From: a virus | DNA: 41,164 bases | IMG/VR virus record: IMGVR_UViG_3300032241_000444 | Coordinates: 1 to 41,164 of that record | Reading direction: 5' to 3' (one strand) | In this document: in pieces, positions 10,851 to 40,940 of the stretch | Layout: every line of letters begins with the position of its first letter | Position numbering within the stretch: the stretch's first letter is position 1 | Notes under the pieces: model-generated | Database searches by the model: none | What the model was told of the DNA's origin: nothing | The model's input: the letters and a program-made list of their open reading frames with translations, nothing else | Translations under genes and position numbers: made by a program

Positions 10851-12068
10851 ATGATTTCTGTATTTACTCCGTCGCACAATTCTCAATACCTAACCGAGTG
10901 CTACAAATCTTTGAAGGCTCAAAGTTACAAAGATTGGGAATGGATTGTTTATCTGAACGGTGGCGCTAAGTGGCCTGACCCTAAAGACCCACGAGTAAAA
11001 GTAATTGAGATGGCTGAGTCCATCGGTGTCGGGCGAGCGAAAGCAGATGCAGTTTCGTTTTGCGAAGGTGACATTCTTGTAGAGCTTGACCACGACGATC
11101 TACTGACTCCAAAAGCCCTAGACCTTATTGCTTCTGAGTTTCATTTTCATCCGGATGCGTCAATGGTCTACGGTAAGTTTCGCCAGATCAACGCTGACGG
11201 GTCAGACAACCACGACATTTTCAACCCCGATTACGGTTGGCATTACGAAGATGGTGTGCCAAACAACTTCCCCCAAGTGCCGTCTGCCGTGTCGTACATT
11301 TGGTACGCACCTAACCACCCAAGGGCTTTTACTAGGGCCGCATACGACGCTGTAGGGGGCTATGACGCAAACCTAGACATCCTTGACGATCAAGATTTGA
11401 TGTGTCGGCTTTACCAGCGTGGCGAGTTTGTCGAAATTCCGGCTCTGATCTACAAGCAGCGTGTCCATTCCGAGCAAACCCAAGTCCGGCAGGACAAGAA
11501 CGCTCGCATCCAAATTGAAACCGTTGGATTCTATGACCGCTACATTCAGGGCAACGCTTTGGCGTGGGCGAAACGAAACGAACTATGGGCGCTTGACCTT
11601 GGGGGCGCACACAACCCCGCCGATGGCTTCACCACGGTAGACCTACACGATGCCGACCGCCAGGGCGACATCTTTGAAGTGCTGGCTGAGTTTCGTGACA
11701 ACTCGGTAGGAGTGATCCGAGCAATGGATTTCTTGGAACATATCCCCGACAAAGTGCGCCTGATGAACGAGTGCTACAGGGTGCTACACCACGGCGGTAT
11801 GTTGTTGTCCATGACTCCAAGCACCGATGGCCGAGGGGCGTTCCAAGACCCGACACACGTATCTTTTTGGAATGAGAACTCATGGTGGTACTACACCAAG
11901 GCTGAGCTTGCCAAGTACGTCCCTGAGATTGTGTGCCGTTTTCAAGTGAGTAGACTCGCCACCGTGTTCCCTTCCGAATGGCACCGCCAAAACAACATTT
12001 CCTATGTCCTTGCCAATGTCGTAGCCATTAAAGACGGGCCGCGTTTGCCCGGACTACTAGAAATCTGA
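10851..12068 (+). CDS. Fused GT2 glycosyltransferase and SAM-dependent methyltransferase
   Basis: Residues 1-215 form a GT-A family 2 domain: ISVFTPSHNSQYL, a nucleotide-sugar region ending in VELDHDDLLTPKAL (the metal-binding Asp-x-Asp equivalent), and DILDDQDLMCRL, equivalent to the catalytic ED. Residues 240-385 form a class I methyltransferase: LDLGGAHNPADGFTTVDL is the SAM-binding loop, and IRAMDFLEHIPDKVRLMNECYRVLHHGGML is the usual post-I block. The fusion suggests that a sugar is added and then methylated, on an unknown acceptor. The ribosome site is GAGAGGG four bases before ATG. A folded leader lies upstream. Confidence 0.85.
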   Translation: MISVFTPSHNSQYLTECYKSLKAQSYKDWEWIVYLNGGAKWPDPKDPRVKVIEMAESIGVGRAKADAVSFCEGDILVELDHDDLLTPKALDLIASEFHFHPDASMVYGKFRQINADGSDNHDIFNPDYGWHYEDGVPNNFPQVPSAVSYIWYAPNHPRAFTRAAYDAVGGYDANLDILDDQDLMCRLYQRGEFVEIPALIYKQRVHSEQTQVRQDKNARIQIETVGFYDRYIQGNALAWAKRNELWALDLGGAHNPADGFTTVDLHDADRQGDIFEVLAEFRDNSVGVIRAMDFLEHIPDKVRLMNECYRVLHHGGMLLSMTPSTDGRGAFQDPTHVSFWNENSWWYYTKAELAKYVPEIVCRFQVSRLATVFPSEWHRQNNISYVLANVVAIKDGPRLPGLLEI

Positions 12069-14727: not shown

Positions 14728-14842
14728 GTGTCCTCATTGTCACGCCACCGTTAGAGCTTTGGCTAAGGAAATGGCGCACCGTTGTACGATGAACAAAAAT
14801 CGTTGGACTGAGTGGAAGGAAGTGACCGATGAACGCAGTTAG
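14714..14842 (+). CDS. Zinc-finger mini-protein (42 residues)
   Basis: The ATG at 14714 lies inside the previous gene and the stop lies inside the methyltransferase start, a tightly packed overlap. The peptide has CPHC at residues 6-9 and HRC at 22-24, spaced like a small zinc finger, followed by a Trp/Lys-rich tail. The reading frame is distinct from both neighbours and the Cys spacing is good, which supports it as real. The function is not known. Confidence 0.6.
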   Translation: MRTFECPHCHATVRALAKEMAHRCTMNKNRWTEWKEVTDERS

Positions 14843-15692
14843 TTTGTTTGCTGGCGTTGGTGGCTTTGACCTTGCACTAGAGCGAGCCGGCGTACCAGTA
14901 GTGGCCGCCGTTGAGATTGACAAGAACGCGTCAGGAGTGTTGGCGCATCGATTCCCCAACAGCACTTTGTTCGGGGACATTCAGGAGGTAACAGGAAATG
15001 ACTTACTACGAGCCGGGTTTATTCCCGAACGAGGAATCATCACAGGAGGATTCCCTTGCCAAGACCTCAGCGTTGCTGGGAAACGTGCTGGACTTGCCGG
15101 AGGGCGCTCAGGTTTGTTCTGGGAAATCTGCAGGCTGCTTGACGATCTCCATCCCAAATACTTCATCCTTGAAAATGTCCCTGGTTTGTTGTCATCAAAC
15201 GGAGGACGAGACATGGGAACCGTTGTCGGGGCGCTGGCTGAGCTCGGGTATGGGATCGCTTACCGAGTTCTGGACGCTCAAAACTTCGGAGTCCCCCAAC
15301 GTCGCCGTCGAGTGTTCATTGTCGGATGTCTTGGAGACTCAGGGGCCGCACCTGCAGAAATACTTGCTATCAGCGAAGGCTTGTTCGGGGATTCTCAGAC
15401 GAGCCAGCCGAAGGGACAAGAAACTACCGGAGCGGCTGGAACAAGCGTTGCGAGCGGTGAAGTAGCAGAGAGAGAGAGAGAGAGAGAGAGAGGTGATCGG
15501 GACAATAGGCCCGACCTTCGGCTCCAAGAATTACAGCAACCATCAAGAAGTGATGTCGGGCAGTCTCGTTGTTATGGACAAACCGGATTCGCCAAATACA
15601 GCGAGCGAGTGACGACATTGACATCAACGACTTACAAAAGAGCGGAGGACAACCTTGTGGTGGTGCAAGTCACGCCGAGCGCAGAACGATGA
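14829..15692 (+). CDS. DNA cytosine-5 methyltransferase, N-terminal part (motifs I-VIII)
   Basis: This 287-residue frame has motif I (LFAGVGGFDLA), an acidic SAM contact (VEID), motif IV with catalytic Cys (GGFPCQDLS, about residue 77), motif VI (LENVPG) and motif VIII (QRRRRVFIVG). After the (AG)13 run at 15467-15492 the frame reads on through sequence that looks wrong. The +1 frame there gives a better target-recognition segment (TIGPTFGSKNYSNHQ...SLVV), then this frame looks right again (YGQTGFAKYS...DNLVV), and the C-terminal motifs are in the frame of 15655-16194. As written it ends at 15692 without motifs IX-X. It may be phase-variable, split or decayed. Confidence 0.8.
   Translation: MNAVSLFAGVGGFDLALERAGVPVVAAVEIDKNASGVLAHRFPNSTLFGDIQEVTGNDLLRAGFIPERGIITGGFPCQDLSVAGKRAGLAGGRSGLFWEICRLLDDLHPKYFILENVPGLLSSNGGRDMGTVVGALAELGYGIAYRVLDAQNFGVPQRRRRVFIVGCLGDSGAAPAEILAISEGLFGDSQTSQPKGQETTGAAGTSVASGEVAERERERERGDRDNRPDLRLQELQQPSRSDVGQSRCYGQTGFAKYSERVTTLTSTTYKRAEDNLVVVQVTPSAER
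15467..15492 (+). repeat. (AG)13 simple sequence repeat inside methyltransferase gene
   Basis: Thirteen uninterrupted AG units lie just after the catalytic domain and encode alternating Glu-Arg. Gain or loss of one unit changes the downstream frame. One extra AG would bring the TIGPTFGSKNYS segment in frame with the catalytic half. Such tracts are the classical basis of phase variation in bacterial methyltransferases. Confidence 0.95.
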
Positions 15693-16194
15693 AGATTACG
15701 AGACATGGGTTCGGGGGGGGGTTGTGCCTACCTTGAACGTTTTTGATAATGCAACCGAGACAAGAGCTACCGTTGTCATTTTCTACGGCAACCGAGTAGA
15801 CGACATCAGGATTCAAGGTGGAGTCATCAACACCTTGCAAGCAAGAATGGGAACTGGTGGAAACAATATGCCGATGGTTTGCCAACCTATTGCTTTCAGC
15901 CACACACAAGGGCTTGATGCCCAATCAAGTGAAGTTGCAACGCCAACATTGAGAAAGGGAGGTGCTGGCATGGCCACGATGCAAGATCAAGCGGTTCGAC
16001 GTTTGACTCCGGTTGAGTGCGAACGCTTGCAAGGATTCCCTGACAACTGGACAGCTCAACGCATTGACGAGAAAAAGGGCTTGGTGGATCAGGCCGACTC
16101 ATCACGCTACAAGCAAATGGGTAACGCAGTAGCGGTGCCTTGTGTCCAATGGATTATAGAAAGGTTGGTGGAGCATGAAACGAAGCAGGATTAA
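15655..16194 (+). CDS. DNA cytosine-5 methyltransferase, C-terminal part (motifs IX-X)
   Basis: The 179-residue frame overlaps the N-terminal frame by 38 bases. It contains the rest of the target-recognition region (RAQNDEDYETWVRGG, VVPTLNVFDNA), motif IX (RRLTPVECERLQGFPDNW) and motif X (KQMGNAVAVPCVQWI). It could be made separately: a GGAGG lies six bases before a TTG at 15655. Two-chain cytosine-5 enzymes split between motifs VIII and IX are known (M.AquI). Otherwise a single base change near the GTGGTGGTG at 15657 separates it from the first part. Confidence 0.75.
   Translation: MWWCKSRRAQNDEDYETWVRGGVVPTLNVFDNATETRATVVIFYGNRVDDIRIQGGVINTLQARMGTGGNNMPMVCQPIAFSHTQGLDAQSSEVATPTLRKGGAGMATMQDQAVRRLTPVECERLQGFPDNWTAQRIDEKKGLVDQADSSRYKQMGNAVAVPCVQWIIERLVEHETKQD
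15713..15721 (+). repeat. G9 homopolymer in methyltransferase C-terminal frame
   Basis: Nine consecutive G bases encode Arg-Gly-Gly in the C-terminal frame. Frame quality is good on both sides of the run at this length. Runs of this size often vary by slippage, in vivo or during sequencing, so it is a second length-variable site in the same gene. Confidence 0.9.
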
Positions 16195-16477
16195 CCCAAT
16201 ATCCAAGAAGCGTCAGCGCCAGAACGCCGAGCGTAAGGCTGCAATGCTTGAAGTGTTCGGCCCGCGTGAGGGTTGGAAATGCCAATTGCGTGGGAAATAT
16301 CTGGCTTGCTTTGGAGATATCAACGGTCACGAACTGTTGAAGCGAAGCCGGGGCGGTAGCATCACGGACATGACAAACGTGGTGCTGTTGTGTAATGTTC
16401 ACAATAGTTGGGTTGAAGATTACCCCGAACTTGCCTATGATCTAGGGCTAGCCAAACATAGCTGGGAGGACCAATGA
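16175..16477 (+). CDS. HNH-like endonuclease domain protein
   Basis: The 100-residue protein begins with a basic segment (KRSRINPISKKRQRQ). It has Cys in WKCQL and ACFGD, then NGHELLKRSRGGSITDMTNVVLLCNVHNSWV. The GHELxxRSRGG-x5-D-x2-N-xxLLCxxHN pattern is the beta-beta-alpha metal fold of HNH proteins, although the first core residue is not the usual His-His pair. In phages such proteins assist packaging or nick DNA. It lies behind the methyltransferase, so a modification-linked nuclease is also possible. It starts inside the methyltransferase C-terminal gene. Confidence 0.75.
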   Translation: MKRSRINPISKKRQRQNAERKAAMLEVFGPREGWKCQLRGKYLACFGDINGHELLKRSRGGSITDMTNVVLLCNVHNSWVEDYPELAYDLGLAKHSWEDQ

Positions 16478-16620
16478 GTATCACCATCACCATTCCCTAC
16501 GAAATAGCAAAAACGTGGGCGCAATTGGGCGAAGCAGAGTTTATCCAAGAGCGGGTAATCGCTAAGGCTTGTAAAGAAGCGATCCGATTGGCGAAACTTG
16601 AGGAATCAACATGCCTTTGA
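16474..16620 (+). CDS. Unknown 48-residue protein
   Basis: It starts by ATGA overlap with the HNH gene, preceded by GGGAGGA. It is a short amphipathic protein: an ITITIPY strand followed by helices with EFIQERVIAKACKEAIRLAKL. Its end overlaps the start region of the resolvase-like gene. The reading frame and coupling support it; no family is recognised. It may be an antitoxin-like or subunit peptide, but nothing proves this. Confidence 0.6.
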   Translation: MSITITIPYEIAKTWAQLGEAEFIQERVIAKACKEAIRLAKLEESTCL

Positions 16621-16969
16621 GAAGCCAGTGACCACGCCGCAAAAAGCCAAAGGCTCTCAATTTGAGCGAGATGTAGCCAAGTACCTTGCTGAGAACGGCC
16701 ACCCCTACGCCGAACGCAGGTATGGAGCAGGCAACACGCAGGACAAGGGAGACATCAACGGCTTGCCAGGGCTGGTCATTGAGTGCAAGAATCACGGAAC
16801 CCTGAAGTTTAGCGAATGGCTAAAGGAAGCTGAAGTAGAAAAAGGTCACGCTAAAGCAGATTACGGTATCGTTGTCGCCAAACGCCGTGGCAAGAGCGCA
16901 AGCGAAGCCTACGTTGTGATGACGCTGGCAGATTTTTCGAGACTATGGAAGGAACGAGATGGACGTTGA
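16598..16969 (+). CDS. PD-(D/E)xK resolvase-like nuclease
   Basis: It has 123 residues from TTG 16598; GTG 16628 gives 113 residues and keeps the whole domain, and the sequence does not decide between them. Family features are GSQFERDVAKYL (first helix with Glu), YGAGNTQDKGDI (metal Asp), VIECKN (Glu-x-Lys) and later DYGIVVAKRRG. This is the Holliday-junction-resolvase-like (Hjc/VRR) nuclease arrangement. It would cut branched recombination or replication intermediates before packaging, which fits the adjacent Cas4-like and annealing proteins. Confidence 0.8.
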   Translation: MRNQHAFEKPVTTPQKAKGSQFERDVAKYLAENGHPYAERRYGAGNTQDKGDINGLPGLVIECKNHGTLKFSEWLKEAEVEKGHAKADYGIVVAKRRGKSASEAYVVMTLADFSRLWKERDGR

Positions 16970-38519: not shown

Positions 38520-40940
38520 ATGGCCCGCCTGCGCTTTGATGCGGTTCGTGGTGAATTAAGCGCCACCCTCGCACCAACGGACACCACTATTTCCTCACCC
38601 GGATTGTCTCGACTTGGGACAGTTCAGGGTGGGGATATAGCGTTAATTTGCATTTACTCAACAGATGTCAACGGCAATATCAACGCATCTGAAAACGTTT
38701 ATGTAACAGATCATTTAGCAGGCGCTACTTCCGCCACCATCCAACGTGCTCAAGATGGCACAACTGCCCAAGCATGGTATTTTAATACTTGTTTTTGGTC
38801 ACACGGTTTTGGTGTTGCTGACGTTACCGACATTGAATCTCTCACTACGGCAGAAACGGCACGAGCCGAAGCAGCCGAGGCTACTCTTAACTCTGCTATC
38901 ACAACCGAGCAAAGTGTTCGTGCCGCCGCAATTACTGGCGTTCAAGGTCAGGTAAGCGCTGAGACTACTCGCGCCACCAATGCCGAGGCTACCAAACAGA
39001 CGCTCTTTGCTCGCACCGCAGTTAAGACTGCTAACTACACGGCAACTACATGGGACTTAGTTGCTTGCGACGCTACCGCAGGCACCTTTACTGTCACCCT
39101 GCCCAGCACCGCCCCTGCTGGTTCAATGGTTTCCGTCAAGCTGATTGCCAGTACCGGCAGTAACTATGTTGCTGTAGTTCCCGGCTCCGGCACCGTTCTT
39201 GACAAATTATCTGGCGGCCCGACTTCTTACAACCTTTCTGCTGTTGGCGCAGACGTTACCGTTACTTTTGATGGCACAAGTATTTGGACGCTTCAATCTG
39301 CTATTTCTCAGGGGCTTCAAGGCGCACAAGGTACACAAGGCTACCAAGGCCCACAGGGTAATCAAGGTACGCAGGGTTATCAGGGTCCACAAGGCCCCCA
39401 GGGTTCCATAGGATCGACTGGAAATACTGGTCCGCAGGGTACGCAAGGGTTGACTGGTCCACAAGGCACACAGGGCGTTCAGGGGTCTACTGGTAGCCAA
39501 GGCCCGCAAGGTACTCAAGGTACGCAAGGTACTCAAGGTACGCAAGGTAATCAAGGTCCGACAGGTATTACGGGCAACACCGGCCCACAAGGTAGCCAAG
39601 GACCGCAAGGCGCGTTAGGCAACCAAGGCAACCAAGGCGCTACGGGTAGTCAAGGTCCACAGGGATACCAAGGCAACCAAGGCTTTCAGGGTTATCAGGG
39701 TTATCAAGGTACTCAAGGTACGCAGGGTACTCAAGGTTTTCAAGGTACGCAAGGGTTCCAAGGATCTGCGGGCAGCCAAGGCTACCCAGTCGGCCTGACA
39801 GGTGCAACCTCAGCTACTCGATACGTCGGCGGCACGACCGCAGGCGCACCTACATCTGGCACATTCGCAGTTGGCGATTTCATTGTTGATGACACGGCTA
39901 CCATCTGGATTTGCACCGCAGCAGGAACTCCGGGTATTTGGTCGCCTTCGGTGCAATCAAGCCTTGTCAATCGCTCAGCAACCGCTACTGCAGGCAATGG
40001 CGAACTCACGATCTACGGCACCTCCGGCGCATCAGGCCAGACAATCACTTTGCCTGCCAGCCCACAGAATGGAGCGCTCTATCAGATCAAGAACCTGTCG
40101 GCCTACACCGTAAACATTCTTGGCGGCACAAACTCAATTAGCATTTCTGGAACTATCTATACCGCCTCAACTCCGTACACAATCCCAGTCGGAGCGGCCT
40201 ACACTTTCAACTGGACAGGTGGCGTTTGGTACTGCTTCGTGACCACCGACATGGGCAAAGTTTCTGGATTGCTCCCTATTGCAAACGGAGGAACCGGACT
40301 CAACACCCTCGGTACTGCTGGACAGGCTCTCGTAGTCAACGGTGGAGCTACCGGACTTACCTACACTTCAGTTGTCGGAACGCAGGGAGCGCAGGGTGCT
40401 ACCGGAGCGCAGGGTGTTCAAGGTGCGACAGGCGCACAAGGTTCACCCGGCGCTCAAGGTTCTACAGGCGCACAAGGAACTACTGGCGCTCAGGGTAGTA
40501 CCGGCGCTCAGGGTGCTACAGGCGCACAGGGGCCACAGGGTTTTCAAGGGAACCAAGGAAACCAAGGAACCCAAGGCAATCAGGGCAACCAAGGAACGCA
40601 AGGAGTATCTGGTTGGCAATTTTCTGCCATCAATGCCAAAACTTCTGCTTATACAACGGTGCTTGCGGATGCGACACAATTAATTACCGCAAACTCAAGT
40701 TCAGCATTTACTATATCCATTCCGACAAACTCCAACGTCGCTTACTCTACTGGTACACAATTAAACATTGTAAACATTAATACGGGTGCTATAACCATTT
40801 CTGCCGTTACGCCAGGAACTACCACTATTACTTCAACTGGCGCTACTTCTGCTTCACCAATTCTTAGAACTCAATGGTCTATGGCGACAGCAATAAAAAC
40901 CGCCAACGAGACTTGGATTGTTGTGGGGGATATTGTCTAA
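38520..40940 (+). CDS. Collagen-like tail fibre protein
   Basis: The 806-residue protein begins with the docking domain shared with the proteins at 3483 and 6611 (ENVYVTDHLAGATSATIQRAQDGTTAQ). A coiled coil (ETARAEAAEATLNSAI), a small beta domain, and a first Gly-x-Gln-rich collagen tract (about residues 265-422, around 52 triplets) follow. Then come a beta domain (423-619), a second tract (620-697) and a C-terminal beta domain. Collagen tracts form trimeric shafts. Ribosome site AAGGGGTCTTT. The GNAT-like gene follows by TAATG. It likely binds host surface glycans. Confidence 0.85.
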   Translation: MARLRFDAVRGELSATLAPTDTTISSPGLSRLGTVQGGDIALICIYSTDVNGNINASENVYVTDHLAGATSATIQRAQDGTTAQAWYFNTCFWSHGFGVADVTDIESLTTAETARAEAAEATLNSAITTEQSVRAAAITGVQGQVSAETTRATNAEATKQTLFARTAVKTANYTATTWDLVACDATAGTFTVTLPSTAPAGSMVSVKLIASTGSNYVAVVPGSGTVLDKLSGGPTSYNLSAVGADVTVTFDGTSIWTLQSAISQGLQGAQGTQGYQGPQGNQGTQGYQGPQGPQGSIGSTGNTGPQGTQGLTGPQGTQGVQGSTGSQGPQGTQGTQGTQGTQGNQGPTGITGNTGPQGSQGPQGALGNQGNQGATGSQGPQGYQGNQGFQGYQGYQGTQGTQGTQGFQGTQGFQGSAGSQGYPVGLTGATSATRYVGGTTAGAPTSGTFAVGDFIVDDTATIWICTAAGTPGIWSPSVQSSLVNRSATATAGNGELTIYGTSGASGQTITLPASPQNGALYQIKNLSAYTVNILGGTNSISISGTIYTASTPYTIPVGAAYTFNWTGGVWYCFVTTDMGKVSGLLPIANGGTGLNTLGTAGQALVVNGGATGLTYTSVVGTQGAQGATGAQGVQGATGAQGSPGAQGSTGAQGTTGAQGSTGAQGATGAQGPQGFQGNQGNQGTQGNQGNQGTQGVSGWQFSAINAKTSAYTTVLADATQLITANSSSAFTISIPTNSNVAYSTGTQLNIVNINTGAITISAVTPGTTTITSTGATSASPILRTQWSMATAIKTANETWIVVGDIV

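Follow-up and report, generated by a model that had tools for sequence, protein, structure and literature searches.

In multispecific cytosine-5 (C5) methyltransferases, such as those of the Bacillus phages SPR and phi3T, the variable region holds several target-recognition units. Genes with poly-G tracts in Campylobacter phages reportedly include those for receptor-binding proteins. Such tracts are described as hypermutable in these phages (Sorensen et al. 2021, Cell Rep 35:109214, in the lines of PMC10877375 that cite it). Natural C5 methyltransferases made of two polypeptides are represented by M.AquI and M.EcoHK31I (PMC3404938). In bacteria, a poly-G tract in the specificity gene of the NgoAV Type I system of Neisseria gonorrhoeae alters methylation specificity by frame, giving either a truncated HsdS1 or a fused HsdS (PMC9577141), and in the C-terminal phase variation of Helicobacter canadensis a homopolymer late in the gene leads through three frames to different C-termini (PMC2823697).

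The stretch of DNA analysed here (the window) is the whole 41,164 bases of the IMG/VR virus record IMGVR_UViG_3300032241_000444. At positions 14829-16194 it encodes a cytosine-5 methyltransferase in two overlapping open reading frames (ORFs), alpha and beta. We consider it likely that this is a two-chain phage C5 methyltransferase that is phase-variable, with its recognition cassettes chosen by slipped-strand changes in repeat tracts. With more reserve, we lean towards the view that it represents a contingency locus widespread among phages. Its selector would have three positions (cassette A, cassette B or none), the two cassettes lying in overlapping frames, and together with an ON/OFF tract in beta it would let one phage genotype give progeny with several methylation patterns.

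Organisation of the methyltransferase

The features of the locus, all on the plus strand, are as follows.

14829-15692, plus strand: alpha ORF, catalytic half and variable tail as assembled (287 aa; ORF call)
14829-15413, plus strand: conserved motifs I-VIII, catalytic region (Pfam match over residues 1-195; FPCQ, ENVPG and QRRRR in the translation)
15467-15492, plus strand: (AG)13 tract of alpha, which we propose selects among three frames (at the same place in L143 as (AG)11 and in L121 as (AG)15)
15493-15573, plus strand: cassette A (VIGTIGPTFGSKNYSNHQEVMSGSLVV), frame +1 (frame open until the stop at 15610-15612; needs AG14, AG11 etc.)
15573-15662, plus strand: cassette B (YGQTGFAKYSERVTTLTSTTYKRAEDNLVV), frame 0 (read as assembled, AG13)
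15644-15648, plus strand: GGAGG, putative ribosome-binding site of beta (from the sequence; TTG 6 nt downstream)
15655-16194, plus strand: beta ORF, TTG start, +1 frame (179 aa; cassettes and motifs IX-X; 38 nt overlap with alpha)
15655-15780, plus strand: first beta cassette (MWWCKSRRAQNDEDYETWVRGGVVPTLNVFDNATETRATVVI; present in 250 loci, the window among them, with 176 distinct contexts)
15713-15721, plus strand: in-frame G9 tract of beta, ON state (stops at 15736 or 15746 in the two remaining frames)
15781-15879, plus strand: second beta cassette (FYGNRVDDIRIQGGVINTLQARMGTGGNNMPMV; same cassette in L008, L030, L055 and others)
15892-15981, plus strand: third beta cassette (AFSHTQGLDAQSSEVATPTLRKGGAGMATM; same cassette in L064, L075 and others)
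15997-16191, plus strand: motifs IX-X (RRLTPVECERLQGF...NAVAVP; PF00145 and comparison with HhaI/HaeIII and relatives)

A Pfam search matches residues 1-195 of alpha to positions 1-179 of the PF00145 profile (E 5.8e-57), and residues 1-167 also match M.HhaI and M.HaeIII. Beta matches the C-terminal part of the same profile (positions 257-323, E 6.3e-13) and PHROG families of its own size class (210-236 aa). Motifs I-VIII and IX-X are thus both present, split over alpha and beta, which places the pair in the PF00145 C5 family. A scan of a genome collection with beta gave mostly bacterial C-terminal motif matches and no clear host; the best full-length match in that scan was 46%, from an uncultured bin.

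With the catalytic half in frame 0, cassette A follows the AG tract in frame +1, cassette B is in frame 0 from 15573, and beta continues in frame +1 from 15655, where its initiation is presumably coupled to the alpha stop. This traced path bears out a sequence-only reading of the window, which had located the (AG)13 and G9 tracts at 15467-15492 and 15713-15721, had placed motifs I-VIII and IX-X in different frames (now ORFs 14829-15692 and 15655-16194, the latter +1) and had noted several frame changes between the catalytic half and motif IX. Its remark that one extra AG puts the next segment in frame also holds, AG14 and equally AG11 bringing cassette A in frame. The G9 tract, which it had listed together with the AG tract and the frame changes, lies in frame within beta and breaks no frame in the window.

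An HNH-endonuclease-like ORF at 16175-16477 (phrog_740, phrog_15522) overlaps the end of beta, and in Omegavirus phages an HNH gene follows beta as well. An endonuclease-like gene lies at 16598-16969 (PDDEXK_15 in Pfam; a 'RusA-like Holliday junction resolvase' PHROG). Elsewhere in the window, a single ORF at 10851-12068 comprises a family 2 glycosyltransferase domain and then a methyltransferase domain, and an 806-aa ORF at 38520-40940, perhaps a collagen-like tail protein, contains CAAGGT-type repeats of period 9 and 18 (39325-40604).

Conservation of the split and of the cassettes

The same two-ORF split is seen in nearly all of about 150 related viral genes. In nearly all of 80 relatives collected with the catalytic half as the sole query, alpha ends past motif VIII, and motifs IX-X are in an overlapping ORF that is usually in the +1 frame; the offset of beta from alpha is +1 in 124 of the 152 contexts with an identifiable alpha. 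A start codon is found no more than 11 codons upstream of the beta K-x-[RK]-R-A motif in every context (176/176), and is ATG in 132 of them. Among distinct catalytic halves, 157 are split and 10 fused, and in the single-chain relatives L037 and L271 the first beta cassette is internal and in frame. Fused rows require six changes for six rows on the tree, so we make no claim that the split arose only once. Separately started chains that split within the variable region, in an arrangement conserved among relatives, are what characterises the two-chain C5 type of M.AquI, and the conservation of the split indicates that the gene pair is a normal form and not a ruin. It also supports the earlier suggestion of two M.AquI-like subunits, with beta starting from the GGAGG-TTG at 15655.

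Between motifs VIII and IX, every gene compared contains rows of 25-45-residue units with a TL-type core, and these units are exchanged among genomes with about 95% identity elsewhere. We read the cassettes as probable target-recognition modules, an assignment made by position, since the variable region between these motifs is what they occupy. Several interchangeable units at this place, here in the form of cassette mosaics, are also the mark of multispecific methyltransferases. In AlphaFold models of the single-chain L035 and of the window beta, the variable region was mostly at pLDDT <40 and was uninformative.

Selection of cassettes by the alpha tract

The AG tract of alpha is far beyond chance, even (AG)9 being found in 0 of 100 dinucleotide-preserving shuffles. 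As assembled, with AG13, no stop is encountered through cassette A into cassette B, and reading continues to 15692. The +1 frame past the tract gives cassette A and then a stop ending at 15612, and AG12 or AG15 (frame +2) gives an immediate stop. Since A and B sit in different frames and the third frame stops, the length of the tract would select A, B or nothing. With AG13 and G9, the window represents the state alpha-B, beta-ON.

Substitutions in both cassettes follow the frames assigned to them. Cassette A has homologues in L052 and L073, from which its codon differences (synonymous/nonsynonymous) are 12/8 and 11/8 in its own frame compared with 2/20 and 1/21 in the others, in a test that counts changes on the other lineage too. 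Cassette B has 21 other distinct homologues among related loci, with differences of 11/9 to 16/5 in frame 0 and 0-2/18-19 in frame 1.

A search of IMG/VR turned up no near-identical record in which the AG tract had a different length. The same design is present with unrelated cassettes in L143 (AG11) and L121 (AG15), where one frame leads to A, one runs free of stops via A into B by the beta start, and the third stops quickly. AG tracts at this site are rare, being found in the window, L143, L121 and possibly L164 and L292; most of the 66 contigs from an AG-tract pattern search were unrelated. In about ten other alphas, G tracts do likewise. One frame completes DLGGGSETLLV and then stops, another reads NIVGxLQARDYKGVGNQYVAENKLVV, and different contigs occupy different states, as in L144 versus L086, L155 and L195.

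Repeats are concentrated in the methyltransferase gene. In L292, a phage contig from a different lineage, methyltransferase motifs come after an (AG)11 tract and the next cassette is in another frame, apparently OFF, and L033 and L108 have a further G9-G10 run in an 'LGDxGxAPAEIL' loop right after the alpha catalytic motifs. Several relatives have GA repeats at a distance of 1.5-3 kb upstream, which we judged not to belong to the methyltransferase gene. L119 has (GA)35 about 2.6 kb upstream of its beta tract, in a stretch with no clear gene, and long GA/AG or CT repeats without a clear gene also lie upstream in L031, L032, L060, L073 and L105.

The G tract of beta

The G9 of the window, taken alone, is not beyond chance (three G7 matches compared with a mean of 4.75 in shuffles), and its weight comes from the conservation of its position in relatives. 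An uninterrupted repeat at a conserved place, as expected of a phase-variable gene, is therefore established for the AG tract by its improbability and for the beta tract by its position. The site is ETWxxGGVVPTLN, and most relatives encode its Gly-Gly as an unbroken G run. An uninterrupted G7-G12 is found in 126 of 176 contexts, constant in position and variable in length, a share biased by the part of the set that was fetched with a G7 pattern; among relatives collected solely with the catalytic half as query it is 28 of 48. GGG GGG codons occupy the site in 53 of 103 contexts, which are not independent sequences, compared with about 4% expected, the background use of GGG being 15-21% of Gly codons.

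Beta is out of frame (OFF) in 29 of the 126 uninterrupted contexts and in none of the 50 interrupted ones (Fisher p 2.7e-5, for contexts many of which are related and not independent of each other). In 20 of these OFF copies the shifted frame remains intact as far as motif IX. A single G at the tract separates the members of near-identical pairs, which have few further indels or none (L044 G8/L065 G7, L042 G8/L059 G9 and L038 G9/L069 G8), and OFF requires eight changes for eight rows on the tree, which indicates that it arises at the tips.

Tract lengths in cultured mycobacteriophages

The nearest cultured relatives by DNA are the Omegavirus mycobacteriophages. Their gene order is similar to that of the window (RecB/Cas4-like exonuclease, small genes, alpha, beta, HNH), and they are annotated with two DNA methylase genes (two CDS) whose ends are inconsistent. 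Dove, Beem, Phoebus and JuicyJay have no mismatches over about 2.4 kb, and the sole difference between them there is the alpha G tract. G8 in Dove leads to cassette A, ending ...LQGGGTRGYRIDAEAAAGGHLQIQSRP before the stop, G9 in Beem and Phoebus leads to cassette B, ending ...DPVAALTANGVGTCGADDNQAQAGHLIAGIFHCPSRA before the stop, and G10 in JuicyJay gives a truncation that ends in LQGGGAPAAIG. The contrast is repeated between Yeet (G9) and Bombitas (G8). Over 41,124 aligned bases, Beem and JuicyJay differ by 164 mismatches and two single-base indels, one of which is the alpha tract. In these relatives, as in phase-variable genes, tract length thus differs between near-identical genomes and shifts the frame; the lengths in the database are consensus calls of error-prone homopolymers, although for the mycobacteriophages each of the three lengths was read from independent records. 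Cassette A shows eight synonymous and two nonsynonymous differences in its own frame when Porcelain is compared with Beem, both now in the B state.

In the Omegavirus loci L425 and L433-L438, an insert with an HNH gene interrupts the catalytic half of alpha; for one such Omegavirus record, intron boundaries could not be determined.

Alternative explanations

That the locus is decaying, as the sequence-only reading had also considered, or is misassembled in this contig, is highly improbable. Three frame changes within 200 nt in a contig that is a single metagenomic consensus would fit such an origin, but two of the three changes, from A to B and from alpha to beta, are found again in relatives, cultured phages included, each cassette has an excess of synonymous differences in its own frame, and other genes of the window are intact (for example a terminase of 628 aa, a portal of 636 aa and a 2476-aa ORF). 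The relaxed constraint and scattered lesions of a pseudogene are not seen; the split is conserved, OFF copies are mostly intact otherwise, and cassettes in alternative frames differ mainly at synonymous sites. We also regard a stable two-chain enzyme with exchangeable cassettes as distinctly unlikely. On this explanation the repeats would be by-products of Gly-Gly and Arg-Glu linkers and the out-of-frame cassettes recombination scars, with no switching. It would accommodate the strong mosaicism of the cassette region between near-identical genomes, with its breakpoints, and the many relatives that are split yet whose tract is interrupted (50 contexts). Other actinophage methylases are reported to recombine within the gene (PMC9957025). 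It does not readily accommodate isolates that show all three frames with no other difference in the region, the restriction of OFF to uninterrupted tracts, the use of GGG GGG at the beta site far above background (in sequences that are not independent), or the conservation of the silent cassette A in its frame.

Repair at the RNA level also seems unlikely to us. In this case the repeats would provoke slippage during transcription or frameshifting by the ribosome, and one genome would yield a mixture of alpha-A, alpha-B and truncated protein. Slippage is possible on long runs of G or AG, and since lengths differ among relatives the exact length might matter little. Beta-frame start codons are nevertheless conserved beside many different cassettes, which bears on the alpha/beta joint only and points to initiation there rather than frameshifting. 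A ribosomal frameshift at this joint is accordingly disfavoured, and inspection of the joints of relatives revealed no common slippery heptamer.

Phase variation, one of the possibilities raised by the sequence-only reading and in our view to be combined with its two-subunit alternative, gains support from the relatives, above all from cultured phages in which tract length is the sole difference in the region; homologues that were all intact and lacked the repeat would have spoken against it, and the relatives examined do not show this pattern.

Proposed mechanism

In the phase-variable two-chain enzyme that we favour, the repeat tract just past the catalytic part of alpha would specify three alpha proteins by three lengths (A, B or neither), and the poly-G in the first beta cassette would set beta ON or OFF. 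The enzyme would be formed by alpha and beta together. That sister genomes differ in length at the tracts suggests that slipped-strand mispairing at replication alters them, so that progeny may vary in the specificity of methylation or even in its presence, and such mixed progeny could hedge against host restriction or methyl-dependent defences. Translation of beta by coupling may fall when alpha is in state A or truncated, because the stop of such an alpha precedes the beta start. The mismatch repair system of actinobacteria, EndoMS/NucS, leaves indels uncorrected (PMC8228993), and the tracts would therefore stay mutable in mycobacterial hosts. For the window virus itself, we infer a switch from the design of the locus and from its relatives.

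If this is correct, contingency loci that alter the specificity of DNA methylation operate in phages too, and not just in bacterial pathogens, through a compact device for selecting frames. A repeat selector would also explain why these phages have been annotated, puzzlingly, with 'two DNA methylase' genes whose ends are inconsistent. Dove, Beem and JuicyJay form a ready natural allelic series, so that bet-hedging of the phage epigenome against restriction is directly testable in Mycobacterium smegmatis.

Comparison with known systems

Multispecific enzymes of the SPR/phi3T type are a single chain in which all units are used at once, with no repeat-driven choice, unlike the alpha/beta locus. 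A report of the combination described here was not found in the literature searched, which was short of most subscription papers, and the passages searched in PMC9957025, PMC11855218 and PMC3706429 make no mention of tract-length switching of actinophage methylases. The expectation that a phase-variable methyltransferase would be unusual in a phage needs tempering, since poly-G switching has already been reported for Campylobacter phages (Sorensen et al. 2021, as cited in PMC10877375); those systems share phage-borne poly-G switching with the methyltransferase locus but belong to different phages. NgoAV is a bacterial Type I system in which the tract joins two genes, whereas the tract in the phage C5 gene picks one of two overlapping cassettes or none. 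In Helicobacter canadensis mostly a few residues are altered, whereas the methyltransferase locus swaps whole conserved cassettes. Two-chain C5 enzymes, bacterial poly-G switching of specificity, C-terminal switching and phage poly-G tracts are each known separately. M.AquI and M.EcoHK31I are not described as phase-variable and are without alternative cassettes in other frames (PMC3404938), whereas here two repeat tracts would set the make-up of both chains.
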